Shown piece after piece: positions 2,073 through 41,029 of a stretch of DNA of 41,029 nucleotides (the stretch's first letter is position 1; the number at the start of each line of letters is the position of its first letter). The DNA lies in contig WTGL01000170.1 in NCBI GenBank assembly GCA_011523565.1, positions 1-41,029 on the forward strand, given 5' to 3'. Below the pieces are notes generated by a model, which saw nothing but the letters and a program-made list of their open reading frames with translations, was not told where the DNA came from and ran no database searches. This stretch comes from Acidobacteriota bacterium. GTDB taxonomy: Bacteria; Acidobacteriota; Thermoanaerobaculia; Multivoradales; Multivoraceae. A program made the position numbers and the translations under genes.

Positions 2073-2180
2073 AGTCTAGGAGCTTGCGCCGTAGCCCGCT
2101 ACAGCGTGAGGGGCGAGGCGCAAGCTCCTGGACGAGGACGGGATGGGCCGAAACACCGAGCCTGCGAGGGGTTTCGGGGC
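2073..2180 (-). repeat. Dispersed palindromic repeat, copy A
   Basis: A 108-base intergenic element with a near-identical partner at 38628-38734. Module 1 is an inverted repeat: CTAGGAGCTTGCGCC (2076-2090) pairs with GGCGCAAGCTCCTGG (2117-2131), 14 Watson-Crick pairs plus one G-T. Module 2 (2132-2180) differs from copy B at about three of 49 positions and contains a smaller inverted repeat, CCGAAA with TTTCGG. The loop of module 1 is the least conserved part. The element lies between divergent folP-folB and the first CRTAC1-like gene. It is drawn on the minus strand because both copies precede a minus-strand gene in that orientation. There is no transposase or clear target duplication. Confidence 0.8.
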
Positions 2181-2212: not shown

Positions 2213-3958
2213 ATGAGCTTTCGAGGCGGCGCCTGGTTGTCGGCCGCTCTGTTCGCCGCCTCGACTCCTGCCGCCGGCGGGCCTCAGGTCGGCGCCGCCG
2301 GCGAGGATTGCGGTTTCGACTTCGTGGACGTAGCGGCCGAAGCCGGATTGGGCTTCGTCCACGAGTCGGGCGCGAGCGGTGGTCTCCATCTGCCCGAGAC
2401 GATGGGTGCGGGCGCGGCGTGGATCGACTTCGACGGCGATGGCTGGCTCGACGCGTACCTGGTGCAGTCGGGACCGTTCCCGCCCGGGGACGGCGAGTCG
2501 TCGGTGGACCGGTTGTTCCGGAACCTGGGGCCCGACGCCACCGGGACGATCCGTTTCGAAGCGGTCGATGCCGGGACTCTGCCCCGAGGCTACGGGCAGG
2601 GAGTCGTTGCGGCGGACGTCGACGGCGACCGCAACGTTGACCTCCTCGTGTCGCACTACGGTCCCACCGTCCTCCTGCGCAACCGGGGCGATGGGGTGTT
2701 CGCCGAGGCGGAACCGCTGCCGGCGGCTTCGCCGGAGGGAGGGGCGGACGAGTTTCCCTGGGGTTCGTCGATGGCGCTTGCTGACGCGGATGGCGATGGC
2801 GACCTGGACCTTTACGTCTCCCGCTACGTCGACTACGACCCGGAACATGGCCTGGTCTGCCGCCGGGACGGCCCGGATTCCGGTCGCCAGGTCTGCGATC
2901 CTTCGCTCTTCCTGGGCCAGCACGACCGCTACTACGTGAACCGGGGCGATGGCAGCTTCGAGGACAGGGCCGCGGCCACGGGTCTCGGGCGCGCCGACGG
3001 CAAAGGTCTCGGGGTCGTGTTCACCGACCTCGACGGAGACGGTATGGCCGATCTCTACGTCGCCAACGACCTGACCCTGAACCTCCTGTTCCGCAATCGC
3101 GGCGACGGCACGTACGAGGACCAGTCGCTGCTGTCGGGAGCGGCCGTGAACGGACGGGGCAGACCGGAGGCGGGCATGGGGGTGGCGATCGCCGACTTCG
3201 ATCTCGACGGCGACCCGGATCTGGCGGTCACGAACTTCGATGTCGAGACGAACACGCTCTACCGCAACGACGGCACCGCGGCCGGCCTTTTGTTCGCGGA
3301 CACCTCGGCCGTTTCCGGCTTCGGCCTTCCATCCTTCAACCTGCTCGGCTTCGGAATCGTGGCCGAGGATTTCGACCGGGACGGTTCGCTCGACGTCTAC
3401 GTCGCCAACGGTCACATCTTCACGACCCCTAGCCGCGACAATACGAGTTACCGGCAGCGCAACCTGCTGCTGCGCGGCGCCGGGACGGGCAGCTTCGCCG
3501 AAGTGCGCTGCGATTGGACCGAGCGGGACCCGCTGGTCAGCCGCGGGGTCGCGGCCGGAGACTTCGACAACGACGGCGACGGCGACCTCCTCGTGACGGC
3601 CAACGACGGTCCGGTGCGGCTGTGGCGCAACGACGCGGCAGCGCCTCGAGGCGGCTGGTTGGCGGTGGAACTTCGCGGCAGCGCGCGGAACACCCAGGGA
3701 GTGGGAGCCGCCGTGACGCTTGCCGCCGCGGACGGTACCCGACCGGAGCGCCGCTGGGTCCTGCGTGGCGACAGCTACCAGTCCTCGAGCGGGCATCGCC
3801 TGCGCTGGGCGGCGGCTTCGGCCGGCCGAGGCACCACGGCCGGTGGCGCCGGCGCCGGCGGCGTCCGGCGGCTGGACGTACGCTGGCCGTCCGGCGACCG
3901 GACCCGGATCGTCGACCCGCCGCGCGACGTCTACCTGATCGTGGAGGAGGGTCGTTGA
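2213..3958 (+). CDS. CRTAC1-like FG-GAP / ASPIC-UnbV exported protein
   Basis: A 581-residue protein. A short N-terminal hydrophobic segment (residues about 8-22) suggests export. The body has seven Asp-rich calcium-type loops of FG-GAP repeats, for example DFDGDGWLDAYL, DVDGDRNVDLLV, DLDGDGMADLYV and DFDLDGDPDLAV, which fits a seven-bladed beta-propeller. The last 90 residues form an ASPIC/UnbV domain (TQGVGAAVTL, then DVRWPSGDRTRI). Between blades is a two-cysteine insert (GLVCRRDG and QVCDP, followed by DRYYVNRGDG) shared with the two other paralogues in this window. It has no recognisable catalytic motif; family members are thought to bind ligands or partners outside the cytoplasm. Its TGA overlaps the TTG start of the M16 peptidase, implying coupled translation. 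Confidence 0.88.
   Translation: MSFRGGAWLSAALFAASTPAAGGPQVGAAGEDCGFDFVDVAAEAGLGFVHESGASGGLHLPETMGAGAAWIDFDGDGWLDAYLVQSGPFPPGDGESSVDRLFRNLGPDATGTIRFEAVDAGTLPRGYGQGVVAADVDGDRNVDLLVSHYGPTVLLRNRGDGVFAEAEPLPAASPEGGADEFPWGSSMALADADGDGDLDLYVSRYVDYDPEHGLVCRRDGPDSGRQVCDPSLFLGQHDRYYVNRGDGSFEDRAAATGLGRADGKGLGVVFTDLDGDGMADLYVANDLTLNLLFRNRGDGTYEDQSLLSGAAVNGRGRPEAGMGVAIADFDLDGDPDLAVTNFDVETNTLYRNDGTAAGLLFADTSAVSGFGLPSFNLLGFGIVAEDFDRDGSLDVYVANGHIFTTPSRDNTSYRQRNLLLRGAGTGSFAEVRCDWTERDPLVSRGVAAGDFDNDGDGDLLVTANDGPVRLWRNDAAAPRGGWLAVELRGSARNTQGVGAAVTLAAADGTRPERRWVLRGDSYQSSSGHRLRWAAASAGRGTTAGGAGAGGVRRLDVRWPSGDRTRIVDPPRDVYLIVEEGR
3943..3950 (+). promoter_or_regulatory. Ribosome binding site of the M16 peptidase gene
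   Basis: GGAGGAGG ends four bases before a TTG codon at 3955. This strong Shine-Dalgarno match inside the end of the upstream gene supports TTG as the real start and translational coupling of the pair. Confidence 0.75.
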
Positions 3959-32554: not shown

Positions 32555-34390
32555 TCAAGGTCCGGACGTCAGGCCGGCCCCGATGGCCTCTCCGCTGCCT
32601 CGGATCAGTGTCTCGTAGCGGCCAGGTCGGTCGAGAAGGAAGGACTCCGATTCGCCGTCGGGCCAGGAAACGACGACGGACAGCGGCGCGGCGCCAACCG
32701 CAGCGAACAGAATCCTTGGATCGTTGCCGACGGCGTAGGAACCGTCGGTGTGGAACCGCCGCCAGGTTCGATTGGTCGCCTGGTCGCCGTTCTGGAGGCC
32801 TACCCAGGCGCCGAGCGGCCGCCGGCCGAAGCGGTTCTCCGCGTTGTTCTGAACGCCATCTCCCTCCACGTCGCGTCGAGGCAGCCGCAGGTCGATGCCG
32901 ACCCATTCGCTGGGGGAGGGTTCCGTCTCATTCATCAGCAACCAGGCTGGTCCCAGGTTGTTCGCGACGACCAGATCCGGGTCGCCGTCGTTGTCCAGAT
33001 CGCCCCGGGCCACGCCGCGGCCGACCTCCGCCGTACCGGGGTGCTCGAAGTCGGCGATGTCCTCGAAACGACCCCCGCCCAGTCCCCGAAAGAGCTGATT
33101 CGGCTGACGCAGGGGATACGGATCGCCGGCCCGGATCTGCTCTTCGATCCGCGTCACGGCGCCATTGGCGATGTAGAGATCCAGCACGCCGTCCAGGTCG
33201 TAGTCCATCGCGGCGACACCGAAACCGGTGTAAGGGAAGCTGGGCGGCCCCAGCCCGCTGCCGCGGGTCGCGTCCTCCCACATGCCGTCGCCCAGATTGA
33301 GGTACAGCGTGTTCGTTTCGCGGTAGACGTGGGTCATGAACAGGTCGACCAGGCCGTCGTCGTTGAAGTCCTGGGCGACGACTCCCATGCTGGCCTCTGG
33401 CTGGCCGGCAGCGTTGACCGCGGCTCCGGCCATCACCGCATCGTTGACGAGGGCGGCGCCTTCGTCGTTCAGGAGGAGTGAGTTGGGCTTCTGGTCGTTC
33501 GCGACGTAGATGTCGGTCCAGCCGTCGCCGTTGAAGTCCGTGGCCACCGTTCCCAGGGTTCCGGCCACCAGGTCGGCGATGCCGAGTCGGGAGGTCCAGT
33601 CCTCGAACTTGCCGCCGCCCTGGTTGCGGAGTACGCGGTTCGCCTCGCCGCGAAAGGCCTTGGGTCCGCAGTACTCGACGATTCCCTGGGCGGAGGAACA
33701 CGGCTTGTGGGTTGCGATCCGAAACTCGACGTAGTTGCCGACGAAGAGGTCGAGCAGTCCGTCACGGTCGAGATCGAAGAAGCTCGCGGCCGCGCTCCAG
33801 CGGGGGTCGGCGGTGTGGCTTCCCTCGGTGATGTTCGTGAAGCGGGGAGCGCCCGGCTGCGAGTCGTTGCGCCAGAGTTCGTTCGGTCCAAAGTTGAGGA
33901 TGTAGAGGTCGGGATCGCCGTCGTTGTCGATGTCCCCGACGGTGGCCCCCATGGCGTAGCCGTAAGCGGCGAGACCGCTCTCCTCGGTCACGTCCGTGAA
34001 GTGCAGCGCGCCACGTTCCAGATCGTTGCGAAACAGACGGTCCATTCTGGGCGGCTCCCCGGTGTCTCCGCTGGCTGGCGGAGAGCCGGATTCGCCCGGA
34101 GGAGGCAGCAGGTGACCCTGGCCCAGGTAGAGGTCGAGGTCGCCGTCGTTGTCGTAGTCGAAGAGGGCGACGGCGCCGCTCATGTGTTCAGCAGTGTACA
34201 GATGCCCGATCATGCCGTTGTAGTGGACGAAGTCGACGCCGAGTTCCGCTGCGCGGTCGACGAGTACGGGCTGCGGATCCCCCGCCGCCAGATGTGCCGG
34301 GGACACGGCGGCGATTCCGATGACCGCGAGACGTACCGACATCGGAACGCGGCGCCCGACTCGAGCAAGCGATGAGCAGGTTCCTGACAC
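32555..34390 (-). CDS. CRTAC1-like FG-GAP / ASPIC-UnbV exported protein (second paralogue)
   Basis: A 611-residue protein. GTG 34390 is preferred because GAGG overlapping the upstream stop codon stands five bases before it; ATG 34342 would give a shorter signal peptide (MSVRLAVIGIAAVSPAHLAAG). Seven Asp-rich FG-GAP loops are visible (DYDNDGDLDLYL, DIDNDGDPDLYI, DLDRDGLLDLFV, DFNGDGWTDIYV, DFNDDGLVDLFM, DYDLDGVLDLYI, DLDNDGDPDLVV), fitting a seven-bladed propeller. The two-Cys insert reads HKPCSSAQGIVEYCGPK. The C-terminal ASPIC/UnbV-like region ends with VVSWPDGESESFLLDRPG. It lies between arginine decarboxylase and two TPR genes in one operon. No enzymatic residues are recognised. Confidence 0.88.
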   Translation of the reverse strand: MSGTCSSLARVGRRVPMSVRLAVIGIAAVSPAHLAAGDPQPVLVDRAAELGVDFVHYNGMIGHLYTAEHMSGAVALFDYDNDGDLDLYLGQGHLLPPPGESGSPPASGDTGEPPRMDRLFRNDLERGALHFTDVTEESGLAAYGYAMGATVGDIDNDGDPDLYILNFGPNELWRNDSQPGAPRFTNITEGSHTADPRWSAAASFFDLDRDGLLDLFVGNYVEFRIATHKPCSSAQGIVEYCGPKAFRGEANRVLRNQGGGKFEDWTSRLGIADLVAGTLGTVATDFNGDGWTDIYVANDQKPNSLLLNDEGAALVNDAVMAGAAVNAAGQPEASMGVVAQDFNDDGLVDLFMTHVYRETNTLYLNLGDGMWEDATRGSGLGPPSFPYTGFGVAAMDYDLDGVLDLYIANGAVTRIEEQIRAGDPYPLRQPNQLFRGLGGGRFEDIADFEHPGTAEVGRGVARGDLDNDGDPDLVVANNLGPAWLLMNETEPSPSEWVGIDLRLPRRDVEGDGVQNNAENRFGRRPLGAWVGLQNGDQATNRTWRRFHTDGSYAVGNDPRILFAAVGAAPLSVVVSWPDGESESFLLDRPGRYETLIRGSGEAIGAGLTSGP

Positions 34391-37288: not shown

Positions 37289-38734
<1,446 letters not shown>

Positions 38735-38741
38735 GCTAGAG

Positions 38742-40439
38742 TCAGCGGACGATCCGGAAGCGCCGTCCGACCGGCAGGCCCGGCAACTGCAGGTTGCCCT
38801 CCCTCGGCCATCGCACGCGCAGTTCTACGTCCGCCGGCCGGCTCCGATCGCGGGCTTCGGTCCCGGACCTGTCCGTGGGCACGCCGAAGGTCCTGGTCAG
38901 CGAGTTCTGGGACAGGTAGGACGATCCGGCCCGCACTTCGCGGCGGTACACGCTCGTGCCGGATCGCAACTCAACGACCGCGCCGATCGCCCTCCGGTTC
39001 GGAGTTTCGCGGTCGACGAGATCTACCTGGACAACCTCGCCCTGGCGGCGGCTCTCGTTTCGGTAGACCTCGACCTCGTCGTTGCAGTTCGAAATGACCA
39101 CATCGGGATCGCCGTCGAGATCGAAGTCGGCGACGGCGAGCCCGCGGCTGACCCTGACCGCGGAGAGACCGCTGGCGCTCCGTTCCACGAAGCGGCCATC
39201 GCGATACTCGAGCAGTTGGTTCGGCTGCGAGTAGGCCGCTCCGTCGTAGGTTTCCTGCTCGGCGATGTTGTGGATGACGTGGCCGTTGGCGACGACCAGG
39301 TCGAGGTCGCCGTCGAGATCGAAGTCGGCGAGACCGACACCGAAGCCGACCCAGGGCATCGACGGTTCGGCGATCCCGGCGGCGAACCGTTGCTCGAGGA
39401 AGAGGCCGTCGCCGCGGTTCGAATAGAGGGCGTTCGTCTGCCGGTCCAGGTGGGTGACGACCAGGTCCTCGAAGCCGTTGCCGTCGATGTCGCCGACCGC
39501 GATTCCCATGCCGGCCTCCGGTTCACCGCGGTCCGACAGGGCGGTGCCGGCGATCAGCGCGGCCTCCTCGAAGCGCGGCCCTTCACTCGTCTTCCGGTTG
39601 AGGAAGTGGAGGTTCGGGTCCATGTCGTTCGCGACGTAGATGTCCGGCCGCCGATCGCCGTCGAGGTCCAGGATGACCACTCCCAGTCCCGCGCCGTCGG
39701 CGTCGCCCAGGCCGAGTGTTCGCGTCGCGTCGACGAAGGTGGGCAGGCCGCCGTCCGTTTGGTCGTTGCGGTACAGGCGATCCGGTAGGCCGTCGTAGAC
39801 GTCCGGGTGGCAGTAGGAGCGCAGCCCGCGTTCCGGCTGTCCGCAGAGGTGGTTGTTGTCGTAGCCGAAGTCGACGTAGTTCGTCACGTAGAGGTCGAGG
39901 TCTCCGTCGAGATCGATGTCGCCGAACGCGGCCGAGGCGCTCCACGAGGCATCTGCGGCGCCGCTCCCGGGTGCCGCGGCGCTGAACGTGCCGTCACCTT
40001 CGTTCAGGAGCAGCCGGTTCGGGCCGAACGCGGTCAGGTAGAGATCCGCGTCGCCGTCCCCATCGACATCGCCGGACACTCCTCCCATGCCGTAGCTGTC
40101 GAGGTGGATGCCCGAGGTGTCCGTCACGTCGACGAACCGGCTGCTGTCGTTCCGGAGCAGGGTGGTGCGGCCCGGTCGGCCTCCATGGGGCGCCGGCTCG
40201 CCGCTGTCGACGAAGAGAAGGTCGTCGTCGCCGTCGCCGTCGTAGTCGAACGCGATGACGCCGCTGCCCATCGTCTCGATCATGTAGAACTCGCCCTGAC
40301 CGCCGTGGCGGTGGCGGAAATCGATCCCCCAGGCATCGGCCGTGTCCACGAATCGAATGCCATCGCCCGCGGAGGTCGTCTGGGCTGGGATCGCGGTGGC
40401 CAGCGTTGCCGCGAGAACTGAGGTCAGGGCGGGAAGCAT
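38742..40439 (-). CDS. CRTAC1-like FG-GAP / ASPIC-UnbV exported protein (third paralogue)
   Basis: A 565-residue protein. ATG 40439 gives a short signal peptide (MLPALTSVLAATLATAIPAQ); the frame stays open upstream but that part has no family similarity and runs into the divergent gene. Seven FG-GAP loops are visible (DYDGDGDDDLLF, DVDGDGDADLYL, DIDLDGDLDLYV, DLDGDRRPDIYV, DIDGNGFEDLVV, DFDLDGDLDLVV, DFDLDGDPDVVI). The paired-Cys insert (NHLCGQPERGLRSYCHPDVY, then DRLYRND) is closest to the family norm of the three. The ASPIC/UnbV end is NRRAIGAVVELRSG, then ELRVRWPREGN. It is probably a calcium-binding seven-bladed propeller outside the cytoplasm. It is divergent from a PQQ-dependent dehydrogenase. 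Confidence 0.89.
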   Translation of the reverse strand: MLPALTSVLAATLATAIPAQTTSAGDGIRFVDTADAWGIDFRHRHGGQGEFYMIETMGSGVIAFDYDGDGDDDLLFVDSGEPAPHGGRPGRTTLLRNDSSRFVDVTDTSGIHLDSYGMGGVSGDVDGDGDADLYLTAFGPNRLLLNEGDGTFSAAAPGSGAADASWSASAAFGDIDLDGDLDLYVTNYVDFGYDNNHLCGQPERGLRSYCHPDVYDGLPDRLYRNDQTDGGLPTFVDATRTLGLGDADGAGLGVVILDLDGDRRPDIYVANDMDPNLHFLNRKTSEGPRFEEAALIAGTALSDRGEPEAGMGIAVGDIDGNGFEDLVVTHLDRQTNALYSNRGDGLFLEQRFAAGIAEPSMPWVGFGVGLADFDLDGDLDLVVANGHVIHNIAEQETYDGAAYSQPNQLLEYRDGRFVERSASGLSAVRVSRGLAVADFDLDGDPDVVISNCNDEVEVYRNESRRQGEVVQVDLVDRETPNRRAIGAVVELRSGTSVYRREVRAGSSYLSQNSLTRTFGVPTDRSGTEARDRSRPADVELRVRWPREGNLQLPGLPVGRRFRIVR

Positions 40440-40508
40440 GGCGGGAGTTGACGGTAGCAGCGATGACGCCAAAGTAAGATGCGCCGGTTCCAACGAAGGG
40501 GATTCCGG
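40440..40508. promoter_or_regulatory. Divergent promoter region of CRTAC1-like and PQQ-dehydrogenase genes
   Basis: This 69-base gap must contain starts for both directions. On the plus strand TTGACG (40448-40453) resembles a -35 box, but the best -10-like hexamer, TAAGAT (40475-40480), is 21 bases away, so the match is poor. GAAGGGGA (40495-40502) is a ribosome binding site for ATG 40509. Confidence 0.4.
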
Positions 40509-41029
40509 ATGTCGAGAGTCGGTCGGCTGGCGGTGCCAGGTCTTGCGTGGTCCTTGGTTCTGGGGGTTGCCGCCGTTCCAGCCGGGGCTCAGCACGGAGC
40601 GCAAGGCGGCGAGTGGCGGCACTTCGGCGGCGACAGCGGCTCGACCCGGTACTCGTCCCTAGACCAGATCGACCGGGATAACTTCGCCCGGTTGGAGGTT
40701 GCCTGGCGCTGGGAGTCGGCCGACGTGCTGCTCAAGGACCTGACCGACCTCGTGCCAGGTTCCTTCCGGGGAATGCCGCTGATGATCGACGGCGTCGTGT
40801 ACATTCCGACGGGCCTCGGCCAGGTCGCCGCCCTGGATCCGGCGACCGGCGAGACACTCTGGCGGCACGACCCGAGGGACTGGGAGATCGAACAGCGGCG
40901 CGGGATGGCGCAGATTCGCGGTCTCGAGTACTGGACCGACGGAACGGCGGAGCGTGTCCTCATCGCGACGCGGGCCGGACGGCTGGTGTCGATCGACACG
41001 AAGACCGGCAGGCCGGATCCGGAGTTCGG
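40509..41029 (+). CDS. PQQ-dependent dehydrogenase (quinoprotein), N-terminal fragment
   Basis: The first 173 residues of a gene that runs off the window. The signal peptide is LAVPGLAWSLVLGVAAVPAGAQ. The mature start is typical of PQQ-dependent alcohol/glucose-type dehydrogenases: GGEWRHFGGDSGSTRYSSLDQI, then NFARLEVAWRW and propeller strands MIDGVVYIPTGLGQVAALDPATGETLWRH with the tryptophan-docking W motif. Such enzymes oxidise alcohols or sugars in the periplasm and pass electrons to quinone or cytochrome. The substrate and any cytochrome domain cannot be judged because the PQQ-binding and C-terminal parts are missing. A GAAGGGGA ribosome binding site stands six bases before the ATG. Confidence 0.88.
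   Translation, partial: MSRVGRLAVPGLAWSLVLGVAAVPAGAQHGAQGGEWRHFGGDSGSTRYSSLDQIDRDNFARLEVAWRWESADVLLKDLTDLVPGSFRGMPLMIDGVVYIPTGLGQVAALDPATGETLWRHDPRDWEIEQRRGMAQIRGLEYWTDGTAERVLIATRAGRLVSIDTKTGRPDPEF

Follow-up and report, generated by a model that had tools for sequence, protein, structure and literature searches.

A small mobile hairpin element confined to one genus of Acidobacteriota inserts precisely beside a CTAG-like tetranucleotide

The window analyzed here, a stretch of 41,029 nucleotides from an Acidobacteriota bacterium of the class Thermoanaerobaculia (contig WTGL01000170.1 of assembly GCA_011523565.1), contains two copies of a dispersed DNA element of about 105 bases that is confined to one genus, being present in 21 of 21 genomes of the genus and in 0 of 128 other genomes of the class. 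The element is built from two hairpins, HP1 and HP2, whose pairing is backed by strong covariation. It is mobile, because orthologous sites in relatives are precisely empty, and it is polymorphic between close relatives. Insertion is precise and takes place directly 5' of a target tetranucleotide, without target duplication. The initial annotation of the window had offered a nonautonomous mobile element as one interpretation of the two copies, and the empty sites and the dispersal of the element through the whole genus bear this out. In what follows, G and L numbers are our handles for genomes and genomic loci.

Distribution and structure of the element

The host genome (G000) is a metagenome-assembled genome (MAG) of 3.72 Mb and 88.7% completeness. 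A covariance model, R1, was built from an alignment of 11 full copies with two hairpins. The further genomic copies that the initial annotation had proposed to look for are plentiful: R1 gives 21 host matches that score over 90 bits, in addition to partial copies, and BLAST against the same genome likewise returned more copies, the best further match having E=1.7e-22, well outside what chance would produce. Between 6 and 60 R1 matches were found per genus genome, counts that include antisense matches of the long hairpin and therefore somewhat overstate copy number; the number of copies is put at about 20-60 per genome. A pattern search with HP2 matched solely Acidobacteriota MAGs under various labels, including Candidatus Multivorans thiocomprendens (Thermoanaerobaculia), and gave no match in viral contigs. 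No curated RNA family in Rfam matches the element. The carrier genomes are presumably those of sponge symbionts, judging from record titles and general knowledge.

HP1 consists of about 15 bp and, in addition, an inner helix. In HP2 the 7-bp stem exists in two versions (CCGAAAC/GTTTCGG and GCCAAAC/GTTTGGC) and is accompanied by two further pairs; the HP2 loop, GAGYCYGCGA, is among the most conserved parts of the family. In an alignment of 99 distinct copies, which was fitted to the model and is thereby biased towards pairing, 90.5% of cells are in standard pairs, compared with 37-43% when the partner is slid, and cells with two-sided changes number 345 versus 128.8 in shuffles. In the pattern that retrieved many of the copies, the HP2 positions that covary were free (S or N), and so complementarity was not imposed there. 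A covariance analysis of the fold had been suggested at the outset, and the compensatory changes that it found are two-sided in 25 of 33 pairs. Selection on structure, as initially proposed, is supported by this covariation, and hairpin-templated mutation could contribute to it. The original description of a conserved stem with a drifted loop holds for HP1 of the two window copies only; in the family as a whole, compensatory changes have altered both stems, and it is the HP2 loop that is highly conserved.

Several variant forms were seen. An autonomous copy was sought through split matches to HP1 and HP2, and the search yielded just long variants of about 190 bases (L045:1499-1710, L048, L285, and L306), in which an extra structured module of about 80 bases, containing a GCCCC(A/T)GGGGCGCAGTG-like motif, sits in the HP2 loop. 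The long variants are possibly an ancestral or composite form. There are also short relatives at L182:5054-5150 (minus strand) and L182:1035-1095, which share the HP1 start GAGTCTGCGCCGTAGA and have a differing 3' part that ends in TTGTCGGG-CTAG or TTGTCGGG-CTAC. Head-to-tail pairs of elements occur, for example at L161 and L196, and in some assemblies HP1 falls at contig ends or gaps (L052 and L054).

Insertion rule from filled and empty sites

The site next to the enolase gene eno provides the clearest view of an insertion. The host reads AGT-CTAG-[element]-CTAG-AGTC, whereas G013, with flanks about 96-99% identical, reads AGT-CTAG-AGTC; the site in G007 is also essentially empty, with TT replacing the A after CTAG. 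Further sites with readable junctions are precisely empty in relatives, and several others are empty in a less clean way.

The left-end word is CTAG in 67 of 97 insertions and CCAG in 10, and the targets are usually CTAG, with CTAC, CTAA, CTAT, CTGA, CTTG, and TTAG also used. At eight sites with a left CTAG and a different word on the right, empty relatives carry the right-hand word: CTAC at L224, L165, and L067; CTAA at L080, where some relatives read CTAG; CTAT at L066; CTGA at L183 and L170; and TTAG at L195. A ninth site of this kind, L063 (left CTAG, right CTAA), is ambiguous, its relatives being mixed. At L065, L186, and L212 the word at the empty site is CTAG, against left words of CCAG, TCAG, and CTGG. 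Where the end words differ, then, the empty site has the right-hand one. This identifies the right-hand word as the target and the left-hand word as borne by the element, and nothing is duplicated. A target-site duplication, for which the initial annotation had proposed to look, is accordingly absent. Duplication of CTAG had been a model derived from the first empty sites and from insertions with matching off-consensus ends, and it was ruled out by the left-CTAG sites with other right words. Both end words equal an off-consensus target at L076 (CTAC), L191 (CTAT), and L043 (CTTG), and L214 (CTAT) is similar, with relatives that read TTAT and a probable match. Such matching ends may mean that retargeting was coupled to the guide, or that a minority of insertions did involve duplication.

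The preference for CTAG bears on where copies come to lie. In sampled regions of G010, G015, and G020 (L408-L467), CTAG occurs 0.31 times per kb versus 2.92 expected from base composition, an approximately tenfold depletion. Control CTAG sites end a long open reading frame in 28-29% of cases on each strand, and insertions do so in 36% on the top strand (p=0.21) and 42% on the bottom strand (p=0.04); compared with genomic CTAG sites, any excess at stop codons is weak or absent. The remaining CTAG words often end genes, and insertion placement mostly follows the available targets.

Complementarity of the HP1 arm to the insertion site

Between the left word and the inner arm of HP1 there is complementarity and also covariation, mostly with changes on both sides (alignment A5, columns 4-7 against 66-69). 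The complementarity extends one step outward. Among 97 independent insertions, the base preceding the element (N) pairs with the first base after the arm (g1) in 74, compared with a mean of 45.7 and a maximum of 62 in 5000 shuffles. At empty sites, where N is the base present before insertion, it pairs with g1 in 17 of 22 entries, read by hand from site alignments, against a shuffled mean of 10.1 (p=0.002). These shuffles ignore subfamily structure, and p-values from them are optimistic. Post-insertion correction of the hairpin cannot account for N-g1 pairing at empty sites; it may have acted at a few filled sites (L195 and L076), where N is unlike that of the empty relatives and now pairs. 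Because N-g1 pairing exceeds expectation in both filled and empty sites, the data suggest guide-assisted targeting, in which the arm of HP1 would base-pair with the target.

The final base of the element (K) follows a rule of its own, being T when N is G and otherwise G, as in L072 versus L189 (22:12 versus 4:59 in the same 97 insertions, Fisher p=1.2e-9; 22:5 versus 2:46 without the g1=A subfamily). In near-identical copies K switches together with N, sometimes with g1 unchanged. Control of K by the base after the target was considered and rejected, since K follows N.

The two copies in the window

The boundaries of the two window copies, both of subtype A and both on the plus strand, were set by aligning other copies and empty sites. 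Copy 1 comprises 106 bases at 2076-2181, between folP-folB and a CRTAC1-like gene. Fold and covariation place its HP1 at 2076-2131, with a left arm (2076-2090) that begins with the element-borne CTAG and a right arm at 2117-2131, and its HP2 at 2148-2177, with the stem CCGAAAC/GTTTCGG and the conserved loop GAGCCTGCGA at 2158-2167. From the sequence and the pairing statistics, the putative target guide is at 2128-2133 and consists of the inner arm CTGG with g1 and g2 being A and C; this region is complementary to the left flank GT plus CTAG, with one G-T wobble. The final base K is T at 2181, and by the rule from empty sites elsewhere the target tetranucleotide is CTAA at 2182-2185.

Copy 2 comprises 105 bases at 38631-38735, between eno and a CRTAC1-like gene. 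The same evidence places its HP1 at 38631-38685 (left arm 38631-38645, right arm 38671-38685), its HP2 at 38702-38731 with the conserved loop GAGTCTGCGA at 38712-38721, and the inner arm CTAG with g1 and g2 being G and C at 38682-38687. Here too the putative guide region is complementary to the left flank GT plus CTAG with one G-T wobble. The target tetranucleotide is CTAG at 38736-38739, which is where G013 has its empty site.

Over about 112 bases, the segments 2073-2188 and 38628-38738 share 87% identity. The initial annotation had described near-identical copies at 2073-2180 and 38628-38734, and its coordinates, the shared orientation, and the three differences within the conserved tail all hold. 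Its assignment of the neighboring genes was confirmed at both copies: these encode a folP-folB fusion, enolase, and two FG-GAP/UnbV_ASPIC (CRTAC1-like) proteins. FG-GAP/ASPIC (CRTAC1-like) genes or repeats lie at 2213-3958, 32928-34390, and 38742-40622, several within a single 41-kb window.

Proposed mode of transposition

We favor, with about even confidence, the reading that this is a small nonautonomous element moving as folded single-stranded DNA. It would be cut and rejoined in trans by a putative enzyme resembling the transposases of the IS200/IS605 (HUH) group. On the minus strand the order would be target NTAG, HP2, linker, guide arm, HP1, and terminal CTAG. As a guide, the inner arm of HP1 (CTAG plus one or two bases) would base-pair with the site of terminal cleavage and would also bias the choice of target. 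The layout matches that of IS200/IS605 elements, in which the left end is preceded on its 5' side by the target tetranucleotide, and the right-end hairpin by a guide tetranucleotide that pairs with the site of terminal cleavage (PMC8266576, PMC6006769). Membership of the IS200/IS605 group is unproven and rests on this layout, because Y1 transposases are missing from 9 of 21 genomes and no orientation bias is seen.

These and other observations weigh against the IS200/IS605-like reading. A search with Y1_Tnp (PF01797) found no Y1 transposase in 9 of the 21 genus genomes, including the host (which, as noted, is 88.7% complete), G013, G019, and the single-contig G020; G013 and G019 are the genomes with the most element matches, yet lack Y1. 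In the other 12 genomes there are at most two Y1 genes per genome, which resemble REP-associated tyrosine transposases (RAYTs; REP, repetitive extragenic palindromic), and no significant copy of the element lies in 13 RAYT loci (L137-L149). IS200/IS605 elements favor the lagging-strand template. A replication-strand bias was considered for our element and set aside: relative to the G-rich strand, as judged by local skew, 22 of 53 copies are co-oriented, and the GC skew of the genomes is clear. Between HP2 and the target there is just GGC and the variable K, with no clear complementarity and no clear left-end guide. The insertions with matching off-consensus ends would look alike under a 4-base duplication, and the association of K with N is not accounted for by an IS200/IS605-like model.

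A bolder version of the proposal, which we advance tentatively, is a re-programmable element. The 3' arm of HP1 with one or two adjacent bases would guide pairing both to the element's own end and to the target, so that changes in the arm would redirect insertion (to CTAT, CTAC, or CTTG); K, linked to the base that precedes the target, would add a second determinant of specificity; and the element would be moved in trans within a genus in which no cognate transposase was detected.

There is a small but real chance that the element is instead of the IS110/IS1111 (bridge RNA) type, in which a DEDD recombinase acting in trans would join a CT core common to the element end and the target, and the HP1 arm, within a transcribed RNA, would serve as target guide. 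CT or YT is retained in nearly all targets, with variation in the two bases that follow, which fits a two-base core at both ends; the arm-target pairing includes G-T wobbles, the structure covaries, and target duplication is absent. However, the two-loop organization was not recognized in the element, and known bridge RNAs are longer than the element, which counts against this alternative.

We see a slender chance that the element is a REP/REPIN-type sequence moved by a RAYT (TnpA-REP) protein of the genus. The initial annotation had called the repeat REP-like, and this description stands insofar as the element is small, dispersed, hairpin-forming, and largely at gene ends; in addition, a RAYT-like Y1 gene is present in 12 of 21 genomes, and NTAG, the target as read on the minus strand, is similar to the GTAG tag of REPs. 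It fails in that there is no such tag and no linked RAYT. REPs are tagged GTAG 5' of the hairpin, whereas our element mostly has CTAG and carries a second, different hairpin; the left ends of 67/97 CTAG and 10/97 CCAG depart from a GTAG/GTGG tag. A RAYT was set aside as mobilizer, as the RAYT loci carry other repeats and lack the element, and nine carrier genomes give no Y1 match. The RAYT loci that were read are bordered by arrays of other palindromes, for example GGGTGCGCCGGCCTTCTGGCCGGC.

It is improbable that the element is a classical miniature inverted-repeat transposable element (MITE) mobilized by a DDE transposase that duplicates CTAG. Many copies do have CTAG at both ends, and a separate family of about 93 bp in the same genomes (L176:7502-7596, L279:1588-1680, and L164:3601-3662) has CTAG at both ends and inverted repeats of about 19 bp, CCCGCAAATTKCACCGAKG. 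The ends of our element, however, are not inverted repeats (GAGCTTGCGCC versus CGCCGCCAAACC), and its left CTAG is kept at CTAC, CTAA, CTAT, CTGA, and TTAG targets, so nothing is duplicated. The 93-bp copy at L176 lies inside an HP1 arm belonging to a copy of the main element.

RNA-mediated insertion by a reverse transcriptase, in the manner of a short interspersed element, is very improbable: the element is structured and has a conserved hairpin loop near its 3' end, but insertion is precise and without duplication, and 15 of 21 genomes, among them the host and the many-copy G019, lack the reverse transcriptase domain RVT_1. Integron attC sites were also considered and set aside, as the R boxes do not fit. 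A role in cis for the copies at folP and eno, as a leader RNA (another early suggestion) or as an attenuator, is hardly credible: they lie upstream of both genes and have a conserved RNA-like structure, but the eno copy is found in the host alone (0 of the 20 other genus genomes), the folP copy is restricted to the host and three other genomes (G001, G007, and G017), G013 having a remnant, copies elsewhere adjoin unrelated genes, no terminator-like site was found in the region around copy 1, and no Rfam family matches.

Significance and comparison with known systems

The element represents an uncurated family of mobile hairpin DNA. Many of its insertions are polymorphic between close relatives, and so a comparison of empty with filled sites reveals the rules of its insertion. 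They point to a target chosen by base pairing, a property known for IS200/IS605 and bridge-RNA elements and relevant to programmable DNA insertion. The choice of CTAG, a depleted word often found at gene ends, may explain how genomes carry tens of copies without broken genes.

With CTAG-ended DDE MITEs, such as the 93-bp family, the element has in common its small size, its lack of coding capacity, and CTAG at both ends, and it differs in having neither terminal inverted repeats nor target duplication. Like REPs and REPINs, it is a short, dispersed, lineage-specific hairpin DNA with many copies, often at gene ends and with a tetranucleotide at the hairpin foot; unlike them it has CTAG in place of GTAG and two different hairpins rather than an inverted pair, and RAYT genes are unlinked and often absent. 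Its possible two-base core and base-paired target choice recall IS110/IS1111 elements, which are far larger. From IS200/IS605 elements it is set apart by the many carrier genomes in which the PF01797 search detected no Y1 transposase, by its lack of orientation bias, and by a guide and terminal site placed directly at the hairpin foot, so that the stem is extended into the flanking DNA. With IS200/IS605 it nevertheless shares insertion 3' of a specific tetranucleotide in the minus-strand reading and without duplication, a subterminal hairpin at each end, and, on the same strand, a guide tetranucleotide 5' of one hairpin that is complementary to the terminal tetranucleotide.
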